Assembly: GCF_023061285.1 (NCBI RefSeq)
Contig: NZ_JAKGAM010000007.1
Location: forward strand, 1 to 64,000
Reading direction: 5' to 3'
DNA from: Chromohalobacter nigrandesensis
GTDB taxonomy: Bacteria; Pseudomonadota; Gammaproteobacteria; Pseudomonadales; Halomonadaceae
Length of the DNA: 64,000 bases
Shown here: positions 1-50,359 of the stretch, in pieces
How positions within the stretch are numbered: the stretch's first letter is position 1
Layout of the letters: every line of letters starts with the position of its first letter
Position numbers and translations under genes: made by a program
Notes under the pieces: generated by a model
The model's input: only the letters and a program-made list of their open reading frames with translations
Told to the model about the DNA's origin: nothing
Database searches by the model: none

Positions 1-396
1 CCCCTCTTCATGACATACCAGCAGGACTTGCTCGAACAGCGCTTCGATTTCTTCGGCATGGCCGCTGACAAAGCTCGCCAGCGTGGTAAAGTGGGGCACG
101 GTATCGCAAGACAAAGCTTTGAAAATGATATTGGTCTCGCAGCACCACTGCATCTCACGGCTGGAAGTGATGCCTTTGGAGTAGGCAAACAGGATGATCT
201 TCAAAAGAATGGCCGGATCATACGCTAGCCGACCAGTCGCGTCGTTGCGGTACTTGGGATGGAAAATCGACAGGTCCAGCTTGTGCTCGATCAGGTAGTG
301 TACCGCGTGCTCAAAAGTGCCGAGCTGAAGCTGATCTTGGTAGTTGATCACCACCATGGCGCTCTGATCGTGGTTATAGGGCTTGAAGCGGGGCAT
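1..396 (-). CDS. Transposase, IS1182-like, N-terminal fragment (runs off window)
   Basis: The first 132 codons of a transposase are open from an ATG at 396 to the window edge. The protein starts MPRFKPYNHDQ and contains AYDPAILLKIILFAYSKG at residues 58-75, followed by a SSRE motif (78-81) and a PHFTTLASF segment. These are hallmarks of the N-terminal DUF772-type domain of IS1182/IS5-like transposases. That domain precedes the DDE catalytic core, which is not in the window. The reading frame shows no stop or frameshift, so the gene may be intact. Family assignment is from remembered motif similarity; the catalytic triad could not be checked. Confidence 0.8.
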   Translation of the reverse strand, partial: MPRFKPYNHDQSAMVVINYQDQLQLGTFEHAVHYLIEHKLDLSIFHPKYRNDATGRLAYDPAILLKIILFAYSKGITSSREMQWCCETNIIFKALSCDTVPHFTTLASFVSGHAEEIEALFEQVLLVCHEEG

Positions 397-466
397 GCCG
401 ACCACTCCTCATCTGTTTACCCGATCCTATCAAAACGTCGCCGTCAGTGGGGTTTTTCTACAGCCT
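1..466 (-). mobile_element. Insertion sequence, IS1182-like, 5' end only
   Basis: This is the upstream end of an insertion sequence that continues beyond base 1. It contains the start of a transposase gene and about 70 bases of upstream IS sequence. The outer edge is placed near 466, where IS-type sequence meets a truncated attC site whose GTT core (468-470) is retained. The exact terminal inverted repeat cannot be fixed because the other end lies outside the window. The element sits at the distal edge of a cassette array and appears to have cut its last attC. Confidence 0.6.
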
Positions 467-511
467 CAACGCCGCAATCACGCGCTTGTCGCGTGCATTG
501 CTTTGTTAGCC
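464..511 (-). other. Truncated integron attC site at the IS junction
   Basis: Read on the minus strand it begins GGCTAAC, then AAA, an arm GCAATGCACGCG, a 5-base loop ACAAG, the complementary arm CGCGTGATTGC, and GGC-GTT. The arms pair perfectly except for one extra G on the first strand, which is the extrahelical base typical of attC sites. The second core site keeps GTT (470-468) and then runs into IS-like sequence. The site overlaps the 3' end of the nucleotidyltransferase gene, so its last codons are attC sequence. Sequence symmetry is seen directly; attC function is inferred. Confidence 0.7.
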
Positions 512-1380
512 AATATAGCAAGAATATCATCCATGTAGCCCCCTAATTTATTCTGACTCCTGATCTGTGATGACCCGTATGCATTAGGAGACTTGATAAA
601 TTTCATCAAAGACATATGCGCGGGATGATACATCCCATTCGACCGAGCTATGAGATAGGCTGCCTCTAAGCTACGCAATTTTTCATATACCGAATTAAAC
701 TGTCGGGCAGAGAGATTAGTCAAAAAAGATTCCATTGAGCCAAATTCCTTTTTCCCTTGTGACAAGCCAAGCCCATCAACAATGCTGCTAACATCGTAAT
801 CAATTGATTCATATGAAATAGTTGGCTGTACATTGCCCGCTCTGTACGCTGACTTAATCTCCCGAAATTTTCTTAACGAATCCACATCGAAACGTGGGAA
901 AACCTTTATTTCCTGCAAGGCATGCTCAATATCCTCAATTCCAAAAACGAGTTTTGCCCGCATAGCTAAACTTTTAATTAAAAAATCTCGGGTCATGCAG
1001 TACAAAACATCAGCCTTCCAGCGATCAAGACGGGGATCACTAGGCCAAGAACTAAAGAAAACAATAGACTCTGCGCAGATCTTAACTTCACCAATTTTCG
1101 GCTTAACTAATTGGCAATTATTGAGCCAATCCTGAAAACAGTTCTGATAGTCGAATAGTATTCGGGACTCATTTTTTAGATGCTGCACGAATAGCGAGCC
1201 TCGCCTCTGCATAGCAATAAGCTGGCCAGAAGTTAAAGTGCTTACGCTATACCCATAGGCCTCATAGCGCCTACGCAACACCCTATGTGAGCTTCTGCTG
1301 CAAACGATAAGAAGATCTTTATCGCTATGTTTGTCATTGCTGCCTCTAACGGATGAGCCAAACTCAACTATTGAAAACAT
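478..1380 (-). CDS. Cassette-borne nucleotidyltransferase-fold protein
   Basis: A 300-residue protein. Residues 8-22 give the pol-beta/MNT nucleotidyltransferase signature: G8-S9, ten residues, then D20-x-D22, inside a strand ending DLLIV. This motif binds nucleotide and two metal ions in minimal nucleotidyltransferases, antitoxin MntA-type AMPylators, kanamycin nucleotidyltransferase and related enzymes. The remaining about 250 residues are mostly predicted helix and not recognised; no HEPN RX4-6H motif was found. It starts one base after the stop of the upstream channel gene, so the two are probably co-expressed. The 3' end lies in an attC site. Low GC relative to the chromosome and the cassette setting indicate transfer. 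The substrate is unknown; a regulatory or defence role with the channel is inference. Confidence 0.75.
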   Translation of the reverse strand: MFSIVEFGSSVRGSNDKHSDKDLLIVCSRSSHRVLRRRYEAYGYSVSTLTSGQLIAMQRRGSLFVQHLKNESRILFDYQNCFQDWLNNCQLVKPKIGEVKICAESIVFFSSWPSDPRLDRWKADVLYCMTRDFLIKSLAMRAKLVFGIEDIEHALQEIKVFPRFDVDSLRKFREIKSAYRAGNVQPTISYESIDYDVSSIVDGLGLSQGKKEFGSMESFLTNLSARQFNSVYEKLRSLEAAYLIARSNGMYHPAHMSLMKFIKSPNAYGSSQIRSQNKLGGYMDDILAILANKAMHATSA

Positions 1381-1381
1381 A

Positions 1382-2263
1382 TCAGCGTGACCTCAGAGCT
1401 ATATTCACTATAGCAGACAAAAATAGCGATATAGCAACAAATCCAAAAAGCGCTTGGAAAGTAACAAAAACTCTTCCCGCAGCTGTAACCGGAACCATAT
1501 CACCAAACCCTAACGTTGTAATTGAAACAACAGTAAAGTAGATCGAATCAACAAAAGAAAGATCACTCTTTACACCGAAAATAAAGCTGTCGAATAGAAA
1601 GTTAAGTACGGAGAAAAGCCCCACCACTATAAATAGAAGCCGCACCACCCGTAAAGGCCGAAGGCCATAACCTGTAACGAAGTCGTATACCCTATGCCGA
1701 ATTTTTCCTTTTAAATATTCCCACCTCGTAATCACATCTCGCTTCTTTTGTGAGTCTAAGTGGGCGTGTCTTGCTCTTTCCATATTATAAAGGCTTTCAA
1801 TCGCGTGCTCTGGCTGGTGCTCGTCCGATGCATTCTTGTATAGCGTTTGATAGAGACCAATTGCTATATTGGTATCACTAAACAAATCAAAATTCTCTTT
1901 AAAGTCGCTTGGGTCAAGCAAACAGCGTGTTACGCGCAATTTGGATGTGTTTGTCTCAAAGAATCGGCAATCAATGAACTCACAATCTGTAAATGATGCG
2001 CCAGCGAATAAACAATTTTTGAACTGACAGCGAAGAAAGCGAATATTTCGAAAATCAGTATCTTTGAATGAAATTCGTTCAAAAACCTTTTCGGAAAAAA
2101 CTATGGGGTGACGGCCAGTGCTCTGAAAGTTCTCTGGATAATAGAGAAGGTCATGCCAAGAGTTTTCTTCTTCAAAGCGAGCAAACTCATCCTGAGAGTC
2201 AACGCGCTGGCCTTCAATTTTAAAGATGCTTGCTGACATACTATTTCCCAGAATAACGATCAT
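1382..2263 (-). CDS. Pentapeptide-repeat / two-TM potassium-channel-like protein
   Basis: A 293-residue fusion. Roughly residues 60-115 form pentapeptide repeats (A/C-x-F-x-x pattern, for example RFLRCQFKNCLFAGASF), which fold as a quadrilateral beta helix. A charged linker follows. The C-terminal third has two hydrophobic helices (about 205-228 and 264-288) flanking a pore segment with TLGFGD at residues 250-255, matching the K+-channel selectivity filter TVGYGD. This fits the ion-channel-2 (2-TM) family in the inner membrane, probably as a tetramer. ATG at 2263 lies shortly after the attC core site. Its stop is one base from the next gene. Gating, ligand and physiological role are not evident; the cytoplasmic repeat domain is the likely sensor. 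Confidence 0.8.
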   Translation of the reverse strand: MIVILGNSMSASIFKIEGQRVDSQDEFARFEEENSWHDLLYYPENFQSTGRHPIVFSEKVFERISFKDTDFRNIRFLRCQFKNCLFAGASFTDCEFIDCRFFETNTSKLRVTRCLLDPSDFKENFDLFSDTNIAIGLYQTLYKNASDEHQPEHAIESLYNMERARHAHLDSQKKRDVITRWEYLKGKIRHRVYDFVTGYGLRPLRVVRLLFIVVGLFSVLNFLFDSFIFGVKSDLSFVDSIYFTVVSITTLGFGDMVPVTAAGRVFVTFQALFGFVAISLFLSAIVNIALRSR

Positions 2264-2273
2264 TTGATTGGTT

Positions 2274-2357
2274 AGCTAACACTCGCAGCACGCACGGCTT
2301 TGTAGTGAAGGTGAAGTCGCAGCCAAAAAGCCGCCGCTGTGCCTGCGATTGTTAGCC
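2274..2357 (-). other. Integron attC site, complete (84 bp)
   Basis: Minus-strand reading begins GGCTAAC and ends GTTAGCT, which are complementary at six of seven positions. Inside, TCGCAGGCAC pairs with GTGCTGCGA except for a single extra G on the first strand, the extrahelical base that directs integron integrase. A second inner stem pairs GGCTTT with AAAGCC. The core sites deviate from the RYYYAAC/GTTRRRY consensus at one position each, in a mutually complementary way. The stop codon (TAA) of the HNH-like gene lies inside the first core site, and the next gene starts about 10 bases after the last core, as is usual for gene cassettes. Confidence 0.85.
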
Positions 2358-3020
2358 ATAATAAAAGATGCAAGATACGTTGAATTCTTTATAAAGACAA
2401 AAATCAATAGAGTACCTAGGACCGTCTTCCGCGTTGAAATCACTTAGCTCATAGTAAAAAATCTCTTTATTCTCACCAGAAGAAATTTTTTCTCGCATCA
2501 GTGAAACAAGTCTTTTGCTGAAATTTTTCTCTTCGGCTGTAGCACTTTCTGGGATCAAGAAGTGCGGTATTACATCGACCTCCCCACGCCATACTTCTTT
2601 GTAGTGGTGAAAGAACACCCCTTTGGCAATAGACTTCAGGAAATTTTCCACTCGCTCCAAATCATATTCCGAAGAAACAGGTATTGTAGGCACTTCGCCT
2701 GATCCAAATGACAGTGGTGGACTAGGATTCCTAATTACTAGAGAGATTAAATTTGGATTCCTCGTCATGGATCTGATCACTGAGTCGCGAAGGAGAACCA
2801 AACCCTTATCCCCCCCTTCATTTATTCTTTTGCTTATTCCAACGAGAAGTGCTCTGACATATTCATCGTCTTTTGATTTTAAAGAATTATGGGCGTCGCA
2901 TGATGGAACTTTTATTAAGTTCCGACGATAGCCTCTTCTTCCACCTTTCGGAAAGAAAGACTTTGGGGGGACATGTTCTTTGCTCGTAGCGGGCGAGCCA
3001 CAGAAATAGCATAAATCCAT
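2352..3020 (-). CDS. Cassette-borne HNH-like zinc protein
   Basis: A 222-residue protein with an N-terminal zinc-binding module: C4-x-x-C7, then E15-H16-V-P-P, then C41-x-x-H44-N45. This arrangement (CxxC, EHxPP, CxxHN) is typical of a divergent HNH endonuclease family found in mobile and defence-related genes. The remaining about 170 residues are charged and predicted mostly helical, with no recognised domain and no membrane segment. The stop codon is embedded in the attC core site at 2351-2357, so the gene is a cassette. A nuclease function is inferred from the motif; it could instead be a structural zinc-finger protein. Base composition is clearly more AT-rich than the chromosome to the right. 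Confidence 0.7.
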   Translation of the reverse strand: MDLCYFCGSPATSKEHVPPKSFFPKGGRRGYRRNLIKVPSCDAHNSLKSKDDEYVRALLVGISKRINEGGDKGLVLLRDSVIRSMTRNPNLISLVIRNPSPPLSFGSGEVPTIPVSSEYDLERVENFLKSIAKGVFFHHYKEVWRGEVDVIPHFLIPESATAEEKNFSKRLVSLMREKISSGENKEIFYYELSDFNAEDGPRYSIDFCLYKEFNVSCIFYYG

Positions 3021-3044
3021 AAATGTACCGTCGGCTAAAAGGTA

Positions 3045-3104
3045 TTAGATAGCACGCTCATTTTGCCACTTGAACGAGCGTGCGCGTTCAATAATCTTAT
3101 CCAT
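3045..3104 (-). CDS. Possible 19-residue leader peptide
   Basis: A short ATG frame encoding MDKIIERARSFKWQNERAI lies between the cassette boundary and the HNH-like gene, 24 bases before that gene's start. The coding sequence contains a perfect 8-bp inverted repeat (GCACGCTC / GAGCGTGC) that could form a hairpin. It might be a translated leader, as found at the front of some first-position cassettes, or chance. There is no homology support. Confidence 0.25.
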   Translation of the reverse strand: MDKIIERARSFKWQNERAI

Positions 3105-3115
3105 CCCGCCATTTA

Positions 3116-3168
3116 GCATCTAACCCATTGATTACAAATGATAATCATAATAATTCGGCGCGTTATGC
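3116..3168 (-). other. Integron core-site pair (attC- or attI-like) at the array boundary
   Basis: On the minus strand this begins GCATAAC and ends GTTAGATGC. The latter is a canonical GTTRRRY core site in the extended form seen at cassette junctions. The 35 bases between are AT-rich and only partly self-complementary, so this is a weaker attC than the one at 2274 and could be a remnant attI. It marks the change from cassette DNA to higher-GC sequence. Confidence 0.45.
3134..3152. promoter_or_regulatory. Fur-box-like palindrome
   Basis: The 19-mer ACAAATGATAATCATAATA matches the classical Fur consensus (GATAATGATAATCATTATC) at 14 of 19 positions, including twelve consecutive ones. It lies inside the core-site pair upstream of the cassette genes. 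Iron control of a cassette promoter is possible. Alternatively the symmetry belongs to the recombination site stem and the match is coincidental. Confidence 0.35.
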
Positions 3169-3500
3169 AGGATTCGCGTGCTTGCAAGCGTTGTTGGGGC
3201 TTTGGGTAAGGCGTTACCGCCCCGTAAAGTGAAAACCGTCTGCCTGCTGGATGCGAACTCATTCGTTGCCACAGCAGGTGTTCCTGAGGTTGAAACCTGA
3301 ACATGGCCCCAGCCACGCTACCGCCCCTACCTGTGCATGCGGCGATGAGCGGCTGTCATCCATGCGATAGTCTTTGCGCGCTGCTTGGTCATCAGTCTTC
3401 TTAAGTAGCCTTTGCTGTACCGTAACTAGCCGTTACAGGGAGAGCAATGCCCACGAACGCATGAGTGGAGCTTGAGGTGAGATTTGATTCACGCAGGCGT
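3169..3500. other. Non-coding stretch between cassette array and TetR gene
   Basis: No convincing gene is seen in these about 330 bases on either strand, and no trace of an integron integrase. A short inverted repeat CCTGCTG (3243-3249) / CAGCAGG (3272-3278) is present. This is the transition from mobile DNA to the chromosomal backbone. Confidence 0.5.
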
Positions 3501-4148
3501 CTACTGCCTGGCTTCACCCAGCATGTTTTCCAGTTCGCTTTCGTCGACGCCGAGCATCTGCAGGATGTTGCGTTGGGCGGCTTCGAGGATGTGCTGGCGT
3601 TCCTGCTCGCCGGGTAGGCTTTTGGCGATGGCGACGGCGCCGACCAGCGAGGCGAGAATGACGCGGGATTTGTCGGCGATGACGTCGCGGTCGGGTTCGA
3701 AGGGGAGTTTCTTGAGACGGCTGAGGGCGATGAGCCGGGTTTCCAGCATCTTTTTCATGCGCAGGTACGAGGCTTCGAAGAGCGTGCGGATCTCGGCGTT
3801 CTCGTTGCCGATCTCGTTGAACAGCACCGTTTCCGGCCCGGGCTTGTGCTTGCGCTCAAGCTCCTGGAGGTTCCAGCAGTTGGAGACCAGCTCCGTGAGG
3901 TGTTTCATCGAAAGCGGCCCCTTGACCAGCCTGGCCGCACGGCTGCTTTCCAGGGTTTCGCGCACCGAGGCGTGGTAGAGCGCTTCCTTGGAGGCGAAGT
4001 GGGCATAGAAGGCGCCGTGGGTCATCTTGGCCAGTTTCATGATCTGGCCGATGGAGACCTTCTCGAAGCCTTGGCGGCTGAACAGTTCGACGGCCGATTT
4101 GAGAATGCGCTCGCGCGATTTGGCTTTGCGATTCGTCGAGTCGGACAT
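3501..4148 (-). CDS. TetR/AcrR family transcriptional regulator
   Basis: A 215-residue regulator. The N-terminal helix-turn-helix (about residues 10-57) reads through FSRQGFEKVSIGQIMKLAKM and a GAFYAHFASKEALY recognition segment, the TetR signature. The remainder is the all-helical ligand-binding and dimerisation domain. It is divergent from the ketoacyl synthase at 4263, with a palindrome in the 114-base gap that is the likely operator for both. By family precedent it would repress the synthase until an effector binds. The ligand is not predictable. A partner related to fatty-acyl or polyketide-like metabolism is suggested by the neighbour only. Confidence 0.9.
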   Translation of the reverse strand: MSDSTNRKAKSRERILKSAVELFSRQGFEKVSIGQIMKLAKMTHGAFYAHFASKEALYHASVRETLESSRAARLVKGPLSMKHLTELVSNCWNLQELERKHKPGPETVLFNEIGNENAEIRTLFEASYLRMKKMLETRLIALSRLKKLPFEPDRDVIADKSRVILASLVGAVAIAKSLPGEQERQHILEAAQRNILQMLGVDESELENMLGEARQ

Positions 4149-4201
4149 GGCGACCTCACGTTGCTGCTCAGAATAGGGGCTGAATACACGCTGAATATTA
4201 T

Positions 4202-4216
4202 CTTGATCATATCAAG
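4202..4216. promoter_or_regulatory. Palindromic operator candidate between tetR and the synthase gene
   Basis: CTTGAT-CAT-ATCAAG is a perfect 6-bp inverted repeat in the divergent intergenic region, 54 bases before the tetR start and 46 bases before the synthase start. Size and position fit a TetR dimer site overlapping both promoters. Confidence 0.5.
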
Positions 4217-4262
4217 CTCGGTGCTAGCGTGGCACGAATACAATTTCGTTCAGGACACTATC

Positions 4263-5528
4263 ATGTCATCACCGCTCGTCATCACCGGCATGGGCATGGT
4301 CAGCCCCCTTGGTTGCGGCGTGAACGCCAACTGGGAGCGCCTGCTGGCCGGTCGCTCCGGCATTTCTTCGATCTCGCGTTTCGATACCGGCGAGTTGCCG
4401 ATCAAGGTCGCGGGCGCGGTACCCGGCATGGAAAGCGACCCGGAAGCAGGCTTCGACCCTGATCGCGTGGCCGATGCCAAGGAACGCCGCAAGATGGAGC
4501 TGTTCAGCCTTTATGCCATGGCTGCCGCCGACGAGGCGCTTACCCAGGCTAATTGGTTCCCGGAAAGCGATGAGGACCGGCTGGCCACCGCGACCATCGT
4601 GGGCTCCGGCATCGGCGGCTTCCCCACCATCACCCAGGCGCAGAATACCCTGACGACGCGCGGGCATCGTCGGCTCTCGCCTTTCACCGTGCCGGCCTTC
4701 CTGGCCAACCTGGCGGCGGGCAATGTGTCGATTCGCTATGGCTTGCGCGGGCCGTTGGGCTGCCCGGTCACGGCCTGCGCGGCAGGCGTGCAGGCCATTG
4801 GCGATGGCATGCGCATGATCCGCAGCGGCGAGGCCGAGGTGGCGCTGGTGGGCGGCGCAGAAGCCTGTATCGACCCGCTCTCGCTGGCCAGCTTCCATGC
4901 CATGAAGGCGCTCTCCACCGAACAAGACGACCCCGCCAAGGCATCGCGTCCCTTCGATCAGGCCCGCAACGGCTTTGTCATGGGCGAAGGCGCGGGGCTG
5001 TTGGTGATCGAAACCCTGGACCACGCCGAGGCGCGCGGGGCAACGCCGCTGGCCTACCTCAGCGGCTATGGCACCAGCGCGGACGCCCACCACATCACAG
5101 CCGGGCCGGAAGACGGCGCCGGTGCCGCAGCCGCCATTCGGTTCGCGCTGCGGATGGCGGGGCTCGCCCCCGACGCCATCGATCACATCAACGCCCACGC
5201 CACTTCGACGCCGGTCGGCGACCGGGCCGAGATCGCCTCCTTGCGCAATGCGTTCGGTGACGCCCTCGCTGGTATTCCGATCTCCGCCACCAAAGCGACC
5301 ACCGGCCACCTGCTCGGCGCCGCCGGCGGGGTGGAAAGCATCTTCTCCGCCATGGCAGCCATTCACGGCCAGCTCCCCCCGACCCTGAATCTGGAAAACG
5401 CCGATGAGGATCTACATGACCTGGACTTCGTCCCGGGCGAGGCACGCGAGCACCGCAGCCAGCACGTACTGTGCAACGGCTTTGGCTTCGGCGGGGTGAA
5501 TGCCGCGCTGATCGTCAGCAAGGTGTAG
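4263..5528 (+). CDS. Beta-ketoacyl-ACP synthase, FabF-like
   Basis: A 421-residue thiolase-fold condensing enzyme. ATG at 4263 is chosen because the protein then begins MSSPLVITGMGMVSPLGCG, the normal FabF start; the frame is open further upstream but that part overlaps the divergent tetR. The catalytic triad is visible: nucleophile C172 in VTACAAGVQ, H312 in NAHATSTPVGD and H349 in TTGHLLGAAGG. It would catalyse decarboxylative condensation of malonyl-ACP with an acyl thioester in the cytoplasm. It stands alone, away from a fab cluster and next to a TetR regulator, so it is probably an accessory synthase rather than the housekeeping FabF. A hairpin follows the stop. Confidence 0.88.
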   Translation: MSSPLVITGMGMVSPLGCGVNANWERLLAGRSGISSISRFDTGELPIKVAGAVPGMESDPEAGFDPDRVADAKERRKMELFSLYAMAAADEALTQANWFPESDEDRLATATIVGSGIGGFPTITQAQNTLTTRGHRRLSPFTVPAFLANLAAGNVSIRYGLRGPLGCPVTACAAGVQAIGDGMRMIRSGEAEVALVGGAEACIDPLSLASFHAMKALSTEQDDPAKASRPFDQARNGFVMGEGAGLLVIETLDHAEARGATPLAYLSGYGTSADAHHITAGPEDGAGAAAAIRFALRMAGLAPDAIDHINAHATSTPVGDRAEIASLRNAFGDALAGIPISATKATTGHLLGAAGGVESIFSAMAAIHGQLPPTLNLENADEDLHDLDFVPGEAREHRSQHVLCNGFGFGGVNAALIVSKV

Positions 5529-5561
5529 GCACTGTCTGAAAAGTACTGCGCTCCGACAAGC

Positions 5562-5596
5562 AGCCACTCACCGTTTCGGCTCAACGGTGAGTGGCT
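5562..5596. terminator. Strong hairpin after the synthase gene
   Basis: A perfect 13-bp stem (AGCCACTCACCGT / ACGGTGAGTGGCT) with a 9-base loop lies about 35 bases after the stop. No T-run follows on either strand, so termination efficiency is uncertain; it sits between convergent genes. Confidence 0.45.
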
Positions 5597-5666
5597 GGAA
5601 AGCGCTAGGTGAGGCAGAGAGCAAGCCCAGCCCCGTGTAGCAAGCGACTAGACTATGTCTCCTACC

Positions 5667-6278
5667 TTACCTTTTCGCGCTGGCCAGGGCGGCCCCGAAG
5701 CACATGAAGGTCGCACCACCGATACGATTGACGACGCGCGCCCCCGTTGGCGAGCGGAACCACCCTTTCGCCTGTTGGCCGAAGAACGCATACAGGCAAT
5801 GAATCACTATCACCAGCGTACTGTACGTCAGCACCAGCAGCGTGAACTGTGCGGTGAAGTCCCACTGTGGGTTGATGAACTGGGGAAAGACCGAGAGAAA
5901 GAAAAACACGGCCTTGGGGTTGGTCAGTTGTATTGTAAGCCCTTCGAGAAAGCGGCGGCGAAAGCCTAGCGATTGCGTGGGCCGTTCAGCGAACGTAAGC
6001 GACGGAGAGCGCCAAAGACGGATCCCCAGATAGAACAGATAAGCGGCGCCGAGGAGTTTCAACGCCGTAAAGGCAACCGCCGAGGTCGCCAAGATCACAC
6101 CGACACTCGAGGCGGAGATGCTCGCAACGAGCAGAGTGCCAAAGGCAATACCGAATATTCCGCCGAGACTCCCCATGAAGCCATACCGCAGCGAGTTGCT
6201 CAGGGTCATCACGACACCCGGCCCTGGGCTGAGCACTGTCAGCGTTGCCATGATCAAGAACAGCCAGTACAGATCCAT
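5667..6278 (-). CDS. LysE/RhtB family amino-acid exporter
   Basis: A 203-residue inner-membrane protein with about six hydrophobic helices. The N-terminus LTVLSPGPGVVMTLSNSLRYG carries the PGP motif and following glycine-rich stretch characteristic of the LysE/RhtB exporters. Length is typical (about 200-210). Family members export amino acids or homoserine lactone-like compounds; substrate cannot be assigned. It is monocistronic, convergent with the ketoacyl synthase gene, and separated from adhP by that gene's terminator. Confidence 0.88.
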   Translation of the reverse strand: MDLYWLFLIMATLTVLSPGPGVVMTLSNSLRYGFMGSLGGIFGIAFGTLLVASISASSVGVILATSAVAFTALKLLGAAYLFYLGIRLWRSPSLTFAERPTQSLGFRRRFLEGLTIQLTNPKAVFFFLSVFPQFINPQWDFTAQFTLLVLTYSTLVIVIHCLYAFFGQQAKGWFRSPTGARVVNRIGGATFMCFGAALASAKR

Positions 6279-6458: not shown

Positions 6459-7487
6459 TCAGCCCATCATGTCCAGCACGATCCGCCCTTCGATTTTGCC
6501 ATCAATCATACGCTGGAAGACGTCGTTGATGTTTTCCAGCTTCTCGGTGGCGATGGTGGCCTCGACCTTGCCTTCACCGGCGAAATCCAGCGCTTCCTGA
6601 AGGTCTTGCCGAGTGCCGACGATGGAGCCACGCACGGTGATGCCGTTGAGCACCGTATCGAAGATCGGCAGCGGGAAGTCGCCCGGCGGCAGGCCATTGA
6701 GCACCAGAGTGCCGCCGCGACGCAGCATGCGCTGGGCCTGATCGAAGGCCTTGGGCGACACGGCGGTGACCAGCGCGCCATGAGCACCGCCGATCTCGCG
6801 TTTGAGGGTCTCGGCCGGATCGGCCTTCAAGGCATTGACGACGACGGTAGCTCCCAGGCGCTCGGCCAGCGCCAGCTTGCCGTCATCGATATCCACCGCG
6901 GCCACGTTGAAGCCCATGGCCTTGGCGTATTGCACCGCCATATGACCTAGACCGCCGATACCCGAGATCACCACCCATTGGCCAGGGCGGGCATCGGTCA
7001 TCTTGAGTCCCTTGTAAACCGTCACGCCGGCACACAGCACCGGCGCGATCTCCAGGAAGTCGACATTGTCGGGCAGCCGTCCCACATAATTGGCATCGGC
7101 TAGGGTGTAGTCGGCGAAACCGCCGTTCACCGAGTAGCCGGTGTTCTGCTGCGACTCGCACAGGGTCTCCCAGCCCCCCAGGCAGTGTTCGCAATGGCCG
7201 CAGGTAGAATAGAGCCACGGCACGCCGACACGGTCGCCCTCCTTGACGTGCTTGACTCCCTCGCCCACCGCCACGATATGGCCGACACCTTCGTGACCGG
7301 GAATGAAGGGTGGGCTGGGCTTGACTGGCCAGTCGCCGTGGGCGGCATGCAGATCGGTATGACACACGCCCGAGGCGGCTACCTCGACCAGGATTTCCCC
7401 CTGCTGCGGTCGCGGAGTCGCGACCTCATCGATCGCCAGCGGTTCGCCGAACTGGCGGACCACGGCAGCTTTCATCGTCTTGTCCAT
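6459..7487 (-). CDS. adhP: Zinc-dependent alcohol dehydrogenase (AdhP type)
   Basis: A 342-residue medium-chain dehydrogenase that would oxidise ethanol and similar primary alcohols to aldehydes with NAD+. Visible features: catalytic zinc ligands C42 in SGVCHTDLH and the His in PGHEGVG; the four-cysteine structural zinc lobe [15 protein letters not shown]; and the Rossmann motif [17 protein letters not shown]. Length and motifs match AdhP/AdhA of proteobacteria. It is downstream of the aldehyde dehydrogenase gene on the same strand (133-base gap holding a hairpin), so the pair can carry alcohol through to the acid. The divergent AraC regulator is the probable activator. Confidence 0.92.
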
Positions 7488-7620: not shown

Positions 7621-9141
7621 TCAATACAGCCCCATCGGGTCGTCGCTGTAGGAGACCAGTACGCATTTCACCTGTTGGTAGTGATCGAGCATCAGCTTGT
7701 GGGTCTCGCGGCCGATGCCTGACTTCTTGTAGCCCCCGAATGCCGCGTGCGCGGGGTATTGGTGGTAGCAGTTGGTCCACACGCGCCCGGCTTGGATGCC
7801 CCGGCCCATGCGGTAGGCGCGGTTCATGTCGCGGGTCCAGACCCCGGCGCCCAGCCCGAACTCGGTATCGTTGGCGATGGCCAGTGCTTCTTCTTCGTCG
7901 CGGAAGGTGGTGATGGCGAGCGTGGGGCCGAAGATCTCCTCCTGGAAGACGCGCATGTCGTTGCGGCCCTTGAGAATGGTGGGCTGCACGTAGAAACCAC
8001 CCGCCAGTTCGCCCTCGAGACTGGCCTTGGCGCCGCCCAGCAGGCATTCGGCGCCTTCCTCGCGGCCGATATCCATGTACGAGAGGATCTTGTCGAACTG
8101 CTCCTTGGAGACCTGGGCGCCGATCTGTGTCTCGGTATCCAGCGGGTTGCCCTGGCGAATGGTCTTGGCGCGTTCGATGGCGCGGGCCATGAACTCGTCG
8201 TAGATCGACTCGTGCACCAGCGCGCGAGACGGGCAGGTACATACTTCGCCCTGGTTGAAGAAGGTCATCAACAAGCCTTCGATGCATTTCTCGGCGAAGG
8301 CCTCGCCATGCGAGAGCACGTCTTCGAAATACACGTTAGGCGACTTGCCGCCCAGTTCCAGCGTGGCCGGCACGATGCGCTTGGCAGCATTAGCCATGAT
8401 TTTGCTGCCCACCGGGGTGGAGCCGGTGAAGGCGATCTTGGCGACACCTTCATGCGTGGTCAGCGCCTCGCCGGCTTCTTCACCGAGGCCGTGCACCACG
8501 TTGATGACGCCCGGCGGCAACAGATCGGCGATCAGCTCGAGGAAGATATTGATCGAGGCCGGGGTCTGCTCGGCCGGCTTGAGCACCGAGCAGTTGCCGG
8601 CAGCGAGCGCAGGCGCCAGCTTCCAGGTCGCCATGAGGATAGGGAAGTTCCAGGGGATGATCTGGCCCACCACGCCGTAGGGCTCGTGGTAGTGATAAGC
8701 GACGGTGTTCTCATCGACTTCGCTGATGGTGCCTTCCTGAGCACGCAGACAACCGGCGAAATAGCGGAAGTGGTCCGCCACCAGCGGGATATCGGCACCG
8801 CTGGTTTCGCGGATCGGCTTGCCGTTGTCCCAGGTTTCGGCCACGGCCAGCTTGTCGATGTTCTGCTCGACGCGATCGGCGATCTGGAGCAACACCTTGG
8901 CCCGCTCGGCGGGCGGCATCTTGCCCCAGGCCGGGGCGGCTTTCTGTGCCGCCTTCACCGCACGGTCGATATCTGCCGCCGATGAACGCGGTACCTGACA
9001 GAAGACCTCACCGGTGATCGGAGTGATGTTGTCCAGATAGCGACCCTCGGCGGGCGCTACCCACTCGCCACCGATGAAATTCTCGTAACGCGACTTGAAG
9101 TCGACGACGGCACCCGGGTTGCCGGGACGTGTGTAAATCAT
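7621..9141 (-). CDS. NAD-dependent aldehyde dehydrogenase (ExaC/AldB-like)
   Basis: A 506-residue aldehyde dehydrogenase oxidising acetaldehyde or related aldehydes to acids. ATG at 9141 has an AGGAG site eight bases upstream and gives the usual [20 protein letters not shown] start. The catalytic glutamate is in [12 protein letters not shown] and the nucleophile lies in [16 protein letters not shown], where two cysteines flank a threonine as in ExaC/AldB. The C-terminal [15 protein letters not shown] motif is also typical. It is the first gene of a two-gene unit with adhP and is divergent from an AraC regulator across a region with two operator-like repeats. Confidence 0.92.
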
Positions 9142-9251
9142 GGCGTGTCTCCTTGGGCGAATGCGCCGGGGCGAGCCGACTGGTGTGCAACCCTGCCCCC
9201 TTGGAAAATGAGTACGCATCGTCCTCAGCATGGCGTGTCAGCCAAGTGTCG

Positions 9252-9367: not shown

Positions 9368-10330
9368 ATGCATGCCGTCACGCCTCCCGATTCGCGCGCC
9401 CGGGTCCCTCGTGCGGACAACGCCCGCACGCTCGAGCAACTGGCGGAGACGCCCCGCACACGGCGCTTGATCGAGAATCGCATCTGTTACGCGGGCCCGC
9501 ATGCGGAGCTGTCGATCTACGATACCTGGTGGCCCGCGCAGGATGTCGCCTTGAGCGCCGAGCGGGTGCTCTACTGCGGCATGCTGCAAGGGCGCAAGGT
9601 GATGCATGGCGCCACCGACGCGCCGGAAACCTTTTTGCCGGGCGAGAGCTTCGTGCTGGCGCCGCACCAGGAAGTGCGCATCGACTTCCCCGATGCGCGC
9701 CCCGACACACCCACTACCTGCCTGACCATCGATCTCGATCCCGCGCGCATTCACGCCCTCAGCGAACGCCTCAACCAGGCCCAGCCACGCGAACGGGAGC
9801 TCGGCGAGTGGCACTATCATCCGCATGCGCTGCACGTGCCGCACAGCCCGACCACCCAGGCGCTGATCGAACGCTTGATGGGGCTCTTCCGCGAGAATCA
9901 CCCCGACCGCGACGCGCTGATCGGGCTGGGCATCGACGAGTTGATCGTGCGCCTGCTGCGTACCCAATCGCGTGAGTTGCTGCTCGCCGACGCCCGCCAG
10001 GCGCCGCCACGTCACGGGCTCGCGGCCGCCCTGGCCTGGCTGGAACGCCACCCCGAGCAGCCTCTGGACGGCGCGCAATTGGCCCGCGAGGCCTGCATGA
10101 GCAAGGCACGCCTGTATCGGCTATTCCAGCGCGAGGTCGGCTACTCCCCCGGCGAGTACCAGCAACGCCTGCGCCTGGCCCGCGCTCGCCAGTGGCTTCG
10201 CGAGGCCGACGCGCCGATTACCGAGATCTGCTACTCGCTGGGCTATCGCAGCCTCAGCCACTTCACCCGGCGCTTCAAGGCCGCCTATGGCCTCACACCC
10301 GGCGACTACCGCCGTCTTCTCATCGCCTGA
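9368..10330 (+). CDS. AraC family transcriptional regulator
   Basis: A 320-residue regulator. Residues about 25-180 form a cupin-like sensing domain (for example GESFVLAPHQEVRIDFPDA). Residues about 215-318 carry the double helix-turn-helix: LAREACMSKARLYRLFQREV, then ITEICYSLGYRSLSHFTRRF and a final PGDYRR. It is divergent from the aldehyde/alcohol dehydrogenase genes with a pair of direct repeats in between, so it most likely activates that operon in response to an alcohol, aldehyde or related metabolite. The ligand is not known from sequence. Confidence 0.88.
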   Translation: MHAVTPPDSRARVPRADNARTLEQLAETPRTRRLIENRICYAGPHAELSIYDTWWPAQDVALSAERVLYCGMLQGRKVMHGATDAPETFLPGESFVLAPHQEVRIDFPDARPDTPTTCLTIDLDPARIHALSERLNQAQPRERELGEWHYHPHALHVPHSPTTQALIERLMGLFRENHPDRDALIGLGIDELIVRLLRTQSRELLLADARQAPPRHGLAAALAWLERHPEQPLDGAQLAREACMSKARLYRLFQREVGYSPGEYQQRLRLARARQWLREADAPITEICYSLGYRSLSHFTRRFKAAYGLTPGDYRRLLIA

Positions 10331-10368
10331 CGCCTGAACCACCTTCTGCACTGCACCACTGAACGACA

Positions 10369-48880: not shown

Positions 48881-50359
48881 CTAGGGCTCCCCGCGTGTCT
48901 CGTCGCCGGAAGAGGTCTCCTTGGTGTCGGGCTCGTCGTCCGCCATGTCGTCCAGTTCTTCAGCATCCACCTGATCGGTCAGATGCGCCGGCAGGTCGCG
49001 CTTCATGCGCACGCCCAGACGCTTGAGCATCAACGCCTGGCTGACCAGGCTCCCCTGCCCCGTCGACAGGCGCCCCATCGCCTGGCGATAGCTGCCGTCG
49101 GCGCGTTCCAGATGACGGCCGACGTCCTCAAGGCTGTCCACGAAGCCGCGAAACTTGTCGAGCAACTTGCCCGCCCGTGCGGCGATGACACGGGCGTTAT
49201 CGTTCTGGCGCTCCAGCGTCCAGAGACTGGCCACGGTTCTCAAGCTCGCCAGCAGCGTGGTCGGCGTGACCACCACGATGTCGCGCGAGAAGGCGTCCTG
49301 GAAGAGCGTTTCATCATGCTGGAAGGCCACCGCGAACGCCGGCTCGACGGGCATGAACAGGAACACGAAATCCGGTGAGTTGAGTCCCGGCAAGCGCGGA
49401 TAGTCACGCCCGGAAAGTGCATCGATATGCGCGCGCACCGCCTGGACATGGGCCTTCAACGCCTGCGCGCGCGTGGCCTCGTCTTCGGCGTTGACGTAAC
49501 GCACGTAGGCGTTGAGCGAGACCTTGGCATCGACGATCAGGTGGCGGTTGTCGGGCAGGTAGATCACCGCATCGGGGCGCTGACGCCCCGACTCGCCCTC
49601 CACCGAGACTTCGCGCTTGTATTCGATGTCGCGGCGCAGTCCCGAGCGCTCGAGCACCGATTCGAGTATCACCTCGCCCCAATCGCCCTGCATCTTCTTG
49701 TCGCCCTTGAGCGCCCGCGTCAGGTTGGCGGCTTCCTCGGTGATCTGGCGATTCAGGGTGGACAGATGCTCGATCTGCGTCTTGAGGGTCGAGCGTTCGC
49801 GCAGCGACTGGCCGTGAATTTCCTCCAGGCGCGCCCGGAAGTCACCGACCTGCTCGCGAAACGGTGCCAGCATGGCCTCGAGATTCTCGCGACTCTGGGT
49901 GTTGAAGGTTTGCTGACGTTCCTCGAAGATCCGTCCCGCCAACGCCTCGAAGTCCTGGGTGAGACGTGTCCGCGCCTCCTCGAGCAGGGCGAGCTTCTCG
50001 GCATGGTGGGAGCGCTCCTGTTCGAGCTGTGTTTCCAGGCGACCGTGACGCTCGCGCAGCGCCGCAAGCTGCTCCTGACGAGCGTCTAGATCGCGCTCGC
50101 GTTGCCCCAGCAGTCGCTGGGTCTCGAGGCTCTGCTCGCGCACGGCGTCCAGTTGGGCATCGCTCTGGGCCAGCTCGCGCTCCAGCCGGGCGCGTGTTTC
50201 CTCGGCCTCGGCCTGATGACGCTGGGCACGTTCGACATCGTGCTCGGCCGCCTCGCGACGCGTGCGTTCACGCCGCCATGCGACACCGAGCATCAGTGCG
50301 GCGAGCATCAGGACGCCCGCAAGGGCGAGAAGATAAGCGGCAGGAAACGTACTGGACAT
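48881..50359 (-). CDS. rmuC: DNA recombination protein RmuC
   Basis: A 492-residue protein. ATG at 50359 gives one N-terminal TM helix (AYLLALAGVLMLAALMLGVAW), then a long coiled coil (about 30-190), then the RmuC nuclease-like domain. Key segments are LKGDKKMQGDWGEVILESVLERSGL, RQRPDAVIYLPDNRHLIVDAKVSLNAY and the FMPVEPAFAVAF region. RmuC limits inversions at short inverted repeats. The frame extends further upstream without conserved sequence. Confidence 0.93.
   Translation of the reverse strand: MSSTFPAAYLLALAGVLMLAALMLGVAWRRERTRREAAEHDVERAQRHQAEAEETRARLERELAQSDAQLDAVREQSLETQRLLGQRERDLDARQEQLAALRERHGRLETQLEQERSHHAEKLALLEEARTRLTQDFEALAGRIFEERQQTFNTQSRENLEAMLAPFREQVGDFRARLEEIHGQSLRERSTLKTQIEHLSTLNRQITEEAANLTRALKGDKKMQGDWGEVILESVLERSGLRRDIEYKREVSVEGESGRQRPDAVIYLPDNRHLIVDAKVSLNAYVRYVNAEDEATRAQALKAHVQAVRAHIDALSGRDYPRLPGLNSPDFVFLFMPVEPAFAVAFQHDETLFQDAFSRDIVVVTPTTLLASLRTVASLWTLERQNDNARVIAARAGKLLDKFRGFVDSLEDVGRHLERADGSYRQAMGRLSTGQGSLVSQALMLKRLGVRMKRDLPAHLTDQVDAEELDDMADDEPDTKETSSGDETRGEP

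Follow-up and report, generated by a model that had tools for sequence, protein, structure and literature searches.

The window analysed here (the whole stretch of 64,000 nt, positions 1-64000 counted from base 1 of its contig) comes from the 3.64 Mb genome of Chromohalobacter nigrandesensis. Near its start, three ORFs are transcribed from the minus strand in the order 222-aa ORF, ion channel and nucleotidyltransferase (NTase) (Table 1). The channel stop and the NTase start read CGC TGA T ATG, with a gap of one base. The likelier start of the channel is the second ATG, which lies behind a GGGAAA run, rather than the first. The original prediction was of a pentapeptide-repeat/ion-channel protein (TTLGFGD) and an NTase with a GS-x10-D-x-D signature, one base apart at 478-2263 on this strand, and both ORFs were confirmed. 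At the other side of the pair is the end of an IS1182-type element, whose transposase, present only in its first 135 aa, matches NF033551 (72.5 bits, E = 3.1e-20; cut-off 270) and PF05598 (E = 1.9e-15). The GC content of the cassette is 0.414 vs 0.635 for positions 3501-64000. An Rfam search of positions 1-6000 with E up to 1 gave a single match, far below the gathering score.

Table 1. Features at the start of the window
Feature	Position	Strand	Remarks
Channel ORF (HalA-like)	1382-2263	-	293 aa as called; likelier start 2239
NTase ORF (HalB-like)	478-1380	-	300 aa
Preceding cassette ORF	2352-3020	-	222 aa; start looks HNH-like (by eye); no family above cut-off
IS1182-type element end	1-463	-	transposase first 135 aa (1-405); adjoins the cassette's attC; contig starts here
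Mobile two-gene cassette	470-2279	-	from the cut before HalA to the cut within its own attC
Cassette's own attC	464-511	-	48 bp; attC scan
Preceding cassette's attC	2274-2357	-	near-symmetric; scan lists +, cassettes read -; score 20, the window's best

The pair had also been described as a single cassette, and this holds in the integron sense. There is an attC-type site at its 3′ end, the attC of a preceding cassette lies before it, and the cargo has moved as a unit. The stretch tested for folding at the own attC (466-513) reaches -12 kcal/mol (z = -1.9) and that at the preceding attC (2266-2356) -23.1 kcal/mol (z = -4.2); 8 and 1 of 200 shuffles, respectively, fold as well. The attC scan was custom-made, and its pattern was loosened after two stricter versions had missed both window sites; the first of these gave one chance match at 49454-49517 and the second gave nothing. 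The final scan finds two sites in positions 1-3500 and none in 3501-64000. When positions 1-3500 were dinucleotide-shuffled, two or more sites occurred in none of 200 shuffles and one site in 15. Matches of a looser scan within ORFs (1101-1238 and 1459-1607) were dropped by the final length and arm limits. We do not claim a third attC or an attI at 3030-3130 (fold z = -1.5; 15 of 200 shuffles as good).

A second copy of the pair, encoding proteins 88% and 84% identical to those of the window, lies in another genomic context in Vreelandella aquamarina (locus L067). DNA agreement between the two begins at GTGTTAGC and ends at GCGGCGTT, and the flanks differ. We take these boundaries to be where an integron cassette is cut (G/TT rule). 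The attC stretch as far as GCGTT is identical in both. Within the genes, DNA identity is 86-87%, with 115 of 882 bases differing in the channel (79 of them at third positions) and 126 of 903 in the NTase (75 at third positions), and dN/dS is 0.14 and 0.17, respectively. Thus, L067 is not a recent copy, both genes are under purifying selection, and neither is a chance ORF. The V. aquamarina pair has its own attC at 6870-6917, and L067 has two more at 8842-8935 and 9190-9249. Before HalA, the match (5036-5107) is weak, with a score of 12, below the final scan threshold. A GTPase-like ORF (L067:3790-4962; 391 aa, P-loop by eye) precedes this pair and differs from the neighbour in the window.

The channel protein comprises a pentapeptide-repeat part, a linker and a TM-pore-TM part, with the TTLGFGD filter at residues 249-255. 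Pfam identifies Ion_trans_2 at residues 223-288 (E = 1.9e-15). The pentapeptide repeats, at about residues 61-124, match three Pfam families (1e-8 to 7e-4), each slightly below its cut-off, and PF00805 is above cut-off in a six-frame search. The best NCBIfam family is HalA (NF051894; E = 5.2e-11), at 42.3 bits of a curated cut-off of 250, followed by a K+-channel family (1.6e-8). HalA matches all six channels of the long-NTase type described below, that of the window included. HalA is the channel and HalB the NTase of the anti-phage system Hailong (Tan et al., 2025, Nature 643:794-800; PDB 9dbh, 9dbi, 9dbj and 9nyi), described here from citing papers and PDB titles. The original prediction knew of no named system for exactly this combination, but Hailong is one, and NCBIfam, PDB profiles and fold comparisons all point there.

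In a PDB search with the single channel sequence, K+ channels are on top (from 3.7e-11) and HalA is not among the best 60 of 311 matches. With a profile of the window channel and five relatives, HalA (9nyi) ranks first (3.7e-19), spanning both the pentapeptide part and the pore, and Qnr-like pentapeptide proteins rank behind it. An AlphaFold model of the channel, made from five sequences, has a mean pLDDT of 75.7. Searched with this model, Foldseek places 9nyi first (E = 3.5e-9; next 2.5e-4), as does VIA-align (Z = 18.6, 266 aligned residues, rmsd 6.4; next Z = 12.7). The overall fold of 9nyi, a pentapeptide part followed by an ion-channel domain, is matched over residues 10-291 of the predicted structure. 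K+ channels (the KCNK family, 4h37 and NaK2K) share the filter and pore helix, with pore identities in Foldseek of 29% to the voltage-gated K+ channel 4h37 and 30-31% to NaK2K, whereas the window channel has a pentapeptide part and an NTase neighbour.

The signature of the NTase consists of G8, S9, D20 and D22, and Pfam NTP_transf_2 matches at 22 bits vs a cut-off of 21. The best NCBIfam family is HalB (NF051895; E = 1.6e-13), aligning residues 7-169 with positions 5-160 of the 211 in the model, at 50.8 bits of a curated cut-off of 190. HalB (9dbh) was matched in the PDB by the single sequence (E = 2.3e-5) and by a profile of ten NTases including that of the window (4.1e-40, with the next family at 7.2e-6). 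The predicted structure is not confident (mean pLDDT 45.9), and as a pointer only, the first nine Foldseek matches of this model in the PDB are HalB chains (best E = 1.2e-3). Sequence differences among 9dbh, 9dbi and 9dbj, read with the entry titles (D21A/D23A and R164A), equate D20 and D22 with D21 and D23 of HalB, and R173 with R164. All three residues are invariant in the eight long NTases.

The second NCBIfam match of the NTase is MntA (NF047752; E = 0.018), the NTase of a type VII toxin-antitoxin system. In an arrangement of this kind, an MntA-type adenylyltransferase would silence the channel covalently, and the pair would mainly stabilise the integron array. Toxin-antitoxin cassettes are known stabilisers of such arrays, the minimal-NTase signature is shared, and the two genes are only one base apart. 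Yet HalB is the better match by eleven orders of magnitude, and MntA reaches 14.9 bits vs its cut-off of 60. The MntA model has 106 positions vs the 300 aa of the NTase, and the partner here is HalA-like. Among six long-type NTases, including that of the window, HalB matches all six and MntA matches one at E = 0.01 or better (0.0028). We therefore consider a type VII-like toxin-antitoxin pair unlikely. Activation as in CBASS, where the NTase would make a (cyclic) nucleotide on infection only and so open the channel, draws on the same parts list, namely an NTase domain and a membrane effector. However, PADLOC gave no CBASS model at E up to 1, only PDC-S09 (best 0.002). In addition, the solved proteins closest to the pair are HalB and HalA, both with PDB entries that hold oligodeoxyadenylate according to their titles, and papers citing Tan et al. 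(2025) call this signal inhibitory. This makes a CBASS-like mode very improbable. The defence logic first proposed, a membrane effector with an NTase, thus stands insofar as both proteins are homologous to parts of anti-phage Hailong, whereas CBASS and MNT, which had served as its examples, fit less well.

We surveyed the linkage of the two genes in other genomes. The HalB model, searched against the class at E 0.001, has matches in 66 of 369 genomes, mostly weak and in no case above cut-off; in control genomes it matches 5 of 14, below cut-off. Four of the five loci with at least 40 bits in the class survey adjoin a HalA-like ORF (the window, L007, L010 and L011), and the fifth (L009) has none within 3.3 kb around its NTase. 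Among the weaker loci (L012-L036), none of 25 has a HalA-like neighbour, in stretches of about 2.3 to 3.3 kb each. The NTase of the window belongs to a long type of 276-329 aa (starts as called), compared with 211-236 aa for short HalA-paired NTases. The channel lies beside the NTase in eight of eight long-type loci from two phyla, always on the same strand and in the order channel then NTase, overlapping or a few bases apart. This is the co-occurrence across genomes that the original prediction had named as a check, and it argues that the two genes belong together.

Within the family, 53 of 201 genomes match the channel profile at E = 1e-8 or better. Three places exceed 380 bits; the others reach 59 bits or less and cover only part of the profile. 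The three genomes with a channel above 380 bits are the three with a long NTase, although all three loci are within the channel profile and two of them within the NTase profile. An ordinary K+ channel that has an NTase beside it by chance and plays no role in defence would account for the K+-channel-like pore and for the single-sequence ranking, but the adjacency across two phyla and the coincidence in the family survey make it extremely improbable.

The long and short types are related through both partners. Profile-profile comparison gave 98.3% (E = 1.8e-14) for the NTases and 99.5% (E = 2.4e-23) for the channels. The long-type channel profile detects four short-type channels outside it (L007, L010, L038 and L040) at 1e-19 to 2e-8. 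Conversely, a profile built from these four detects channels outside it, namely L011 (3.5e-24) and all eight of the long type (1e-10 to 2e-22). L040 comes close to the curated family, with 230.6 of 250 bits for HalA and 162.8 of 190 for HalB, and the HalA-HalB-like pairs L007 and L038 are as distant from the curated cut-offs as the window pair. Searches for NTase relatives gave no records in plasmids or phages. Six plasmid records match the channel, none spanning 80% of it. Viral contigs gave three pore-only matches (L071-L073), and those of their ORFs that carry a G-F/Y/A-G-D/E motif are by eye not HalA-like; other viral searches gave none.

The long-NTase loci are listed in Table 2. An intact T[TS]LGFGD filter occurs in five of the eight channels, and in none of four short-NTase HalA-like proteins (L007, L010, L038 and L040); at this position solved HalA aligns FGYTNYA. 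A tree of 16 NTases does not unite the K+-filter type, and we do not claim a single origin: three changes are needed, and the fork that splits the type is supported at 78/89. L039 groups with two Roseobacteraceae rows (99/98). Gain, loss or an ancestral filter are all possible. The long type is rare: a single-sequence search gave one of the 369 class genomes, and the class of G674 has 2 of 289. By profile, there are matches in 4 of 201 family genomes: the window genome, G840, G866 and the short-type G744. A scan of named genomes with two peptide patterns, far from exhaustive, gave four loci from 194 stretches.

Table 2. Loci with a long NTase and the filter of the adjoining channel
Locus	Source	Filter
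Window	Chromohalobacter nigrandesensis	TTLGFGD
L067 (L074/G840 identical sequence)	Vreelandella aquamarina	intact
L039 (G674)	other class, same phylum as window	intact
L080 (G969)	same class as G674	TLLGFSF
L068	Palleronia aestuarii	intact
L069	Litoreibacter	intact
L070	Bacteroidia MAG	TSLGAGE
L075 (G866)	same family as window	ATLGASG

The C-terminal tyrosine of HalB reportedly primes synthesis, and Hailong is said to have a crown domain. No such near-terminal tyrosine was found in the window NTase, whose last tyrosine is 18 residues from the C-terminal end, which means that synthesis must be primed in another way or yield another product. Across 16 NTases, the last tyrosine is within two residues of the end in five (L007, L040, L041, L042 and L069) and at least 12 residues away in 11, including L010, L011 and L038, all with a HalA-like partner. 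In the window NTase, a Ser also takes the place of the E in the TELQF of HalB (alignment to 9dbh). Judged from the sequence, these two differences suggest a chemistry different from that of HalB. The stop codon of the NTase lies within the attC, so that its last residues (..ANKAMHATSA) are encoded by the attC; NTase tails are likewise read from attC in L067 and L075.

The window pair shares with Hailong the order HalA-HalB, which L040, L007, L010 and L038 also have. It has the same parts, a channel of pentapeptide part plus TM-pore-TM and an NTase that carries GS..DxD and the counterpart of R164. It differs in its low identity to short-NTase relatives (16-21% for the NTase and 18-21% for the channel), the longer NTase without the near-terminal tyrosine, the intact TxGFGD filter in place of the FGYTN of solved HalA, the shorter channel (293 aa vs 371 in 9nyi) and its place on an integron cassette. 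Overall, the pair is probably a distant Hailong-like anti-phage guard carried on one integron cassette. Because the catalytic residues are kept, and so is the fold of both partners (for the NTase, judged by sequence), we infer that it follows the same logic as Hailong, and by this analogy its role would be in phage defence. We know of no phage assay of the pair.

By this logic, the NTase would make a nucleotide product constantly, most likely short homopolymeric DNA, as in the oligo-dA of HalB. The product would bind the pentapeptide part of the channel, which is probably a tetramer, and hold it shut. The channel would be freed if a phage nuclease destroyed the product or if the NTase were lost. 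The open pore, with its canonical K+ filter, would then let K+ out, and growth would stop before phage release. We regard inhibition of the channel by the product as likely and K+ selectivity as somewhat favoured, and give an oligodeoxynucleotide product slightly better than even chances.

Hailong-like pairs lie within cassettes in three lineages, namely those of the window, L075 and L010; the NTases of the latter two are 24% and 17% identical to that of the window. The distant pair of L075 is flanked by attC at 8537-8614 and 10290-10337 (coordinates of L079, the same place). At the place of L010 (L084, genome G325), a short-NTase HalA-HalB pair and a third small ORF are flanked by attC at 4656-4712, a site spotted by eye and then located by its string, and at 6477-6572. 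Apparently, L084:4656-6572 is a three-gene integron cassette. L082 has one attC, about 2 kb past its pair, and L068, L069, L070, L080, L081, L083 and L085 have none at the final threshold. The integron integrase model TIGR02249 has four matches in the window genome, none above the 265-bit cut-off; this is either an attC cluster without an integrase, or the integrase is absent from the assembly. An integrase of 369 bits was detected in G866, which carries L075, and none above cut-off in G840 and G325. Defence cargo flanked by attC also appears in those parts of the literature on integron defence cassettes that were covered here.

Two respects look new: the intact K+ filter in five of eight channels and the pair as cargo of a two-gene integron cassette. 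Titles and the opening parts of abstracts gave no report of Hailong in integrons; such a subtype may stand in Tan et al. (2025). Tentatively, and with the odds somewhat against it, the pair might represent a Hailong subtype that combines a K+-selective effector with an NTase not primed by a terminal tyrosine, using another primer or base than in oligo-dA, spreading as a single cassette and having the C-terminus of its NTase written by attC. The K+ filter of this subtype is perhaps nearer to the ancestral K+ channel than that of solved HalA. Few immune systems use a nucleotide signal to inhibit the effector, and Hailong is among them. In a compact, distant form whose K+ filter is intact, it can be tested directly whether the pore serves for selective K+ loss and whether tyrosine-primed oligo-dA is required as the signal. 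A two-gene guard defence needs both parts from the start, and if such systems travel as single integron cassettes, hosts would gain a complete defence by one recombination event.

We also noted HalB-like NTases in other contexts. Those of L041 (1276-3122) and L042 (1132-2884) score 214 bits, above the 190 cut-off, and 182 bits, and lie directly after a DNA-binding protein that is WYL-like by eye, with no NCBIfam match. Neither locus has a HalA-like ORF within 3.3-3.5 kb around the NTase, and both are perhaps HalB with another effector. In L042, a patatin-like ORF (by eye) diverges beside the NTase. The HalB-like NTase of L009 (1216-1839; 50.2 bits) adjoins an ORF that by eye resembles DNA polymerase III alpha. 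A third small gene follows HalB in three short-NTase pairs (L084:6141-6479, L007:2114-2494 and L038:2105-2467), and blastp comparison of the three products with one another suggests that they are related (E = 5e-8 to 2e-5).
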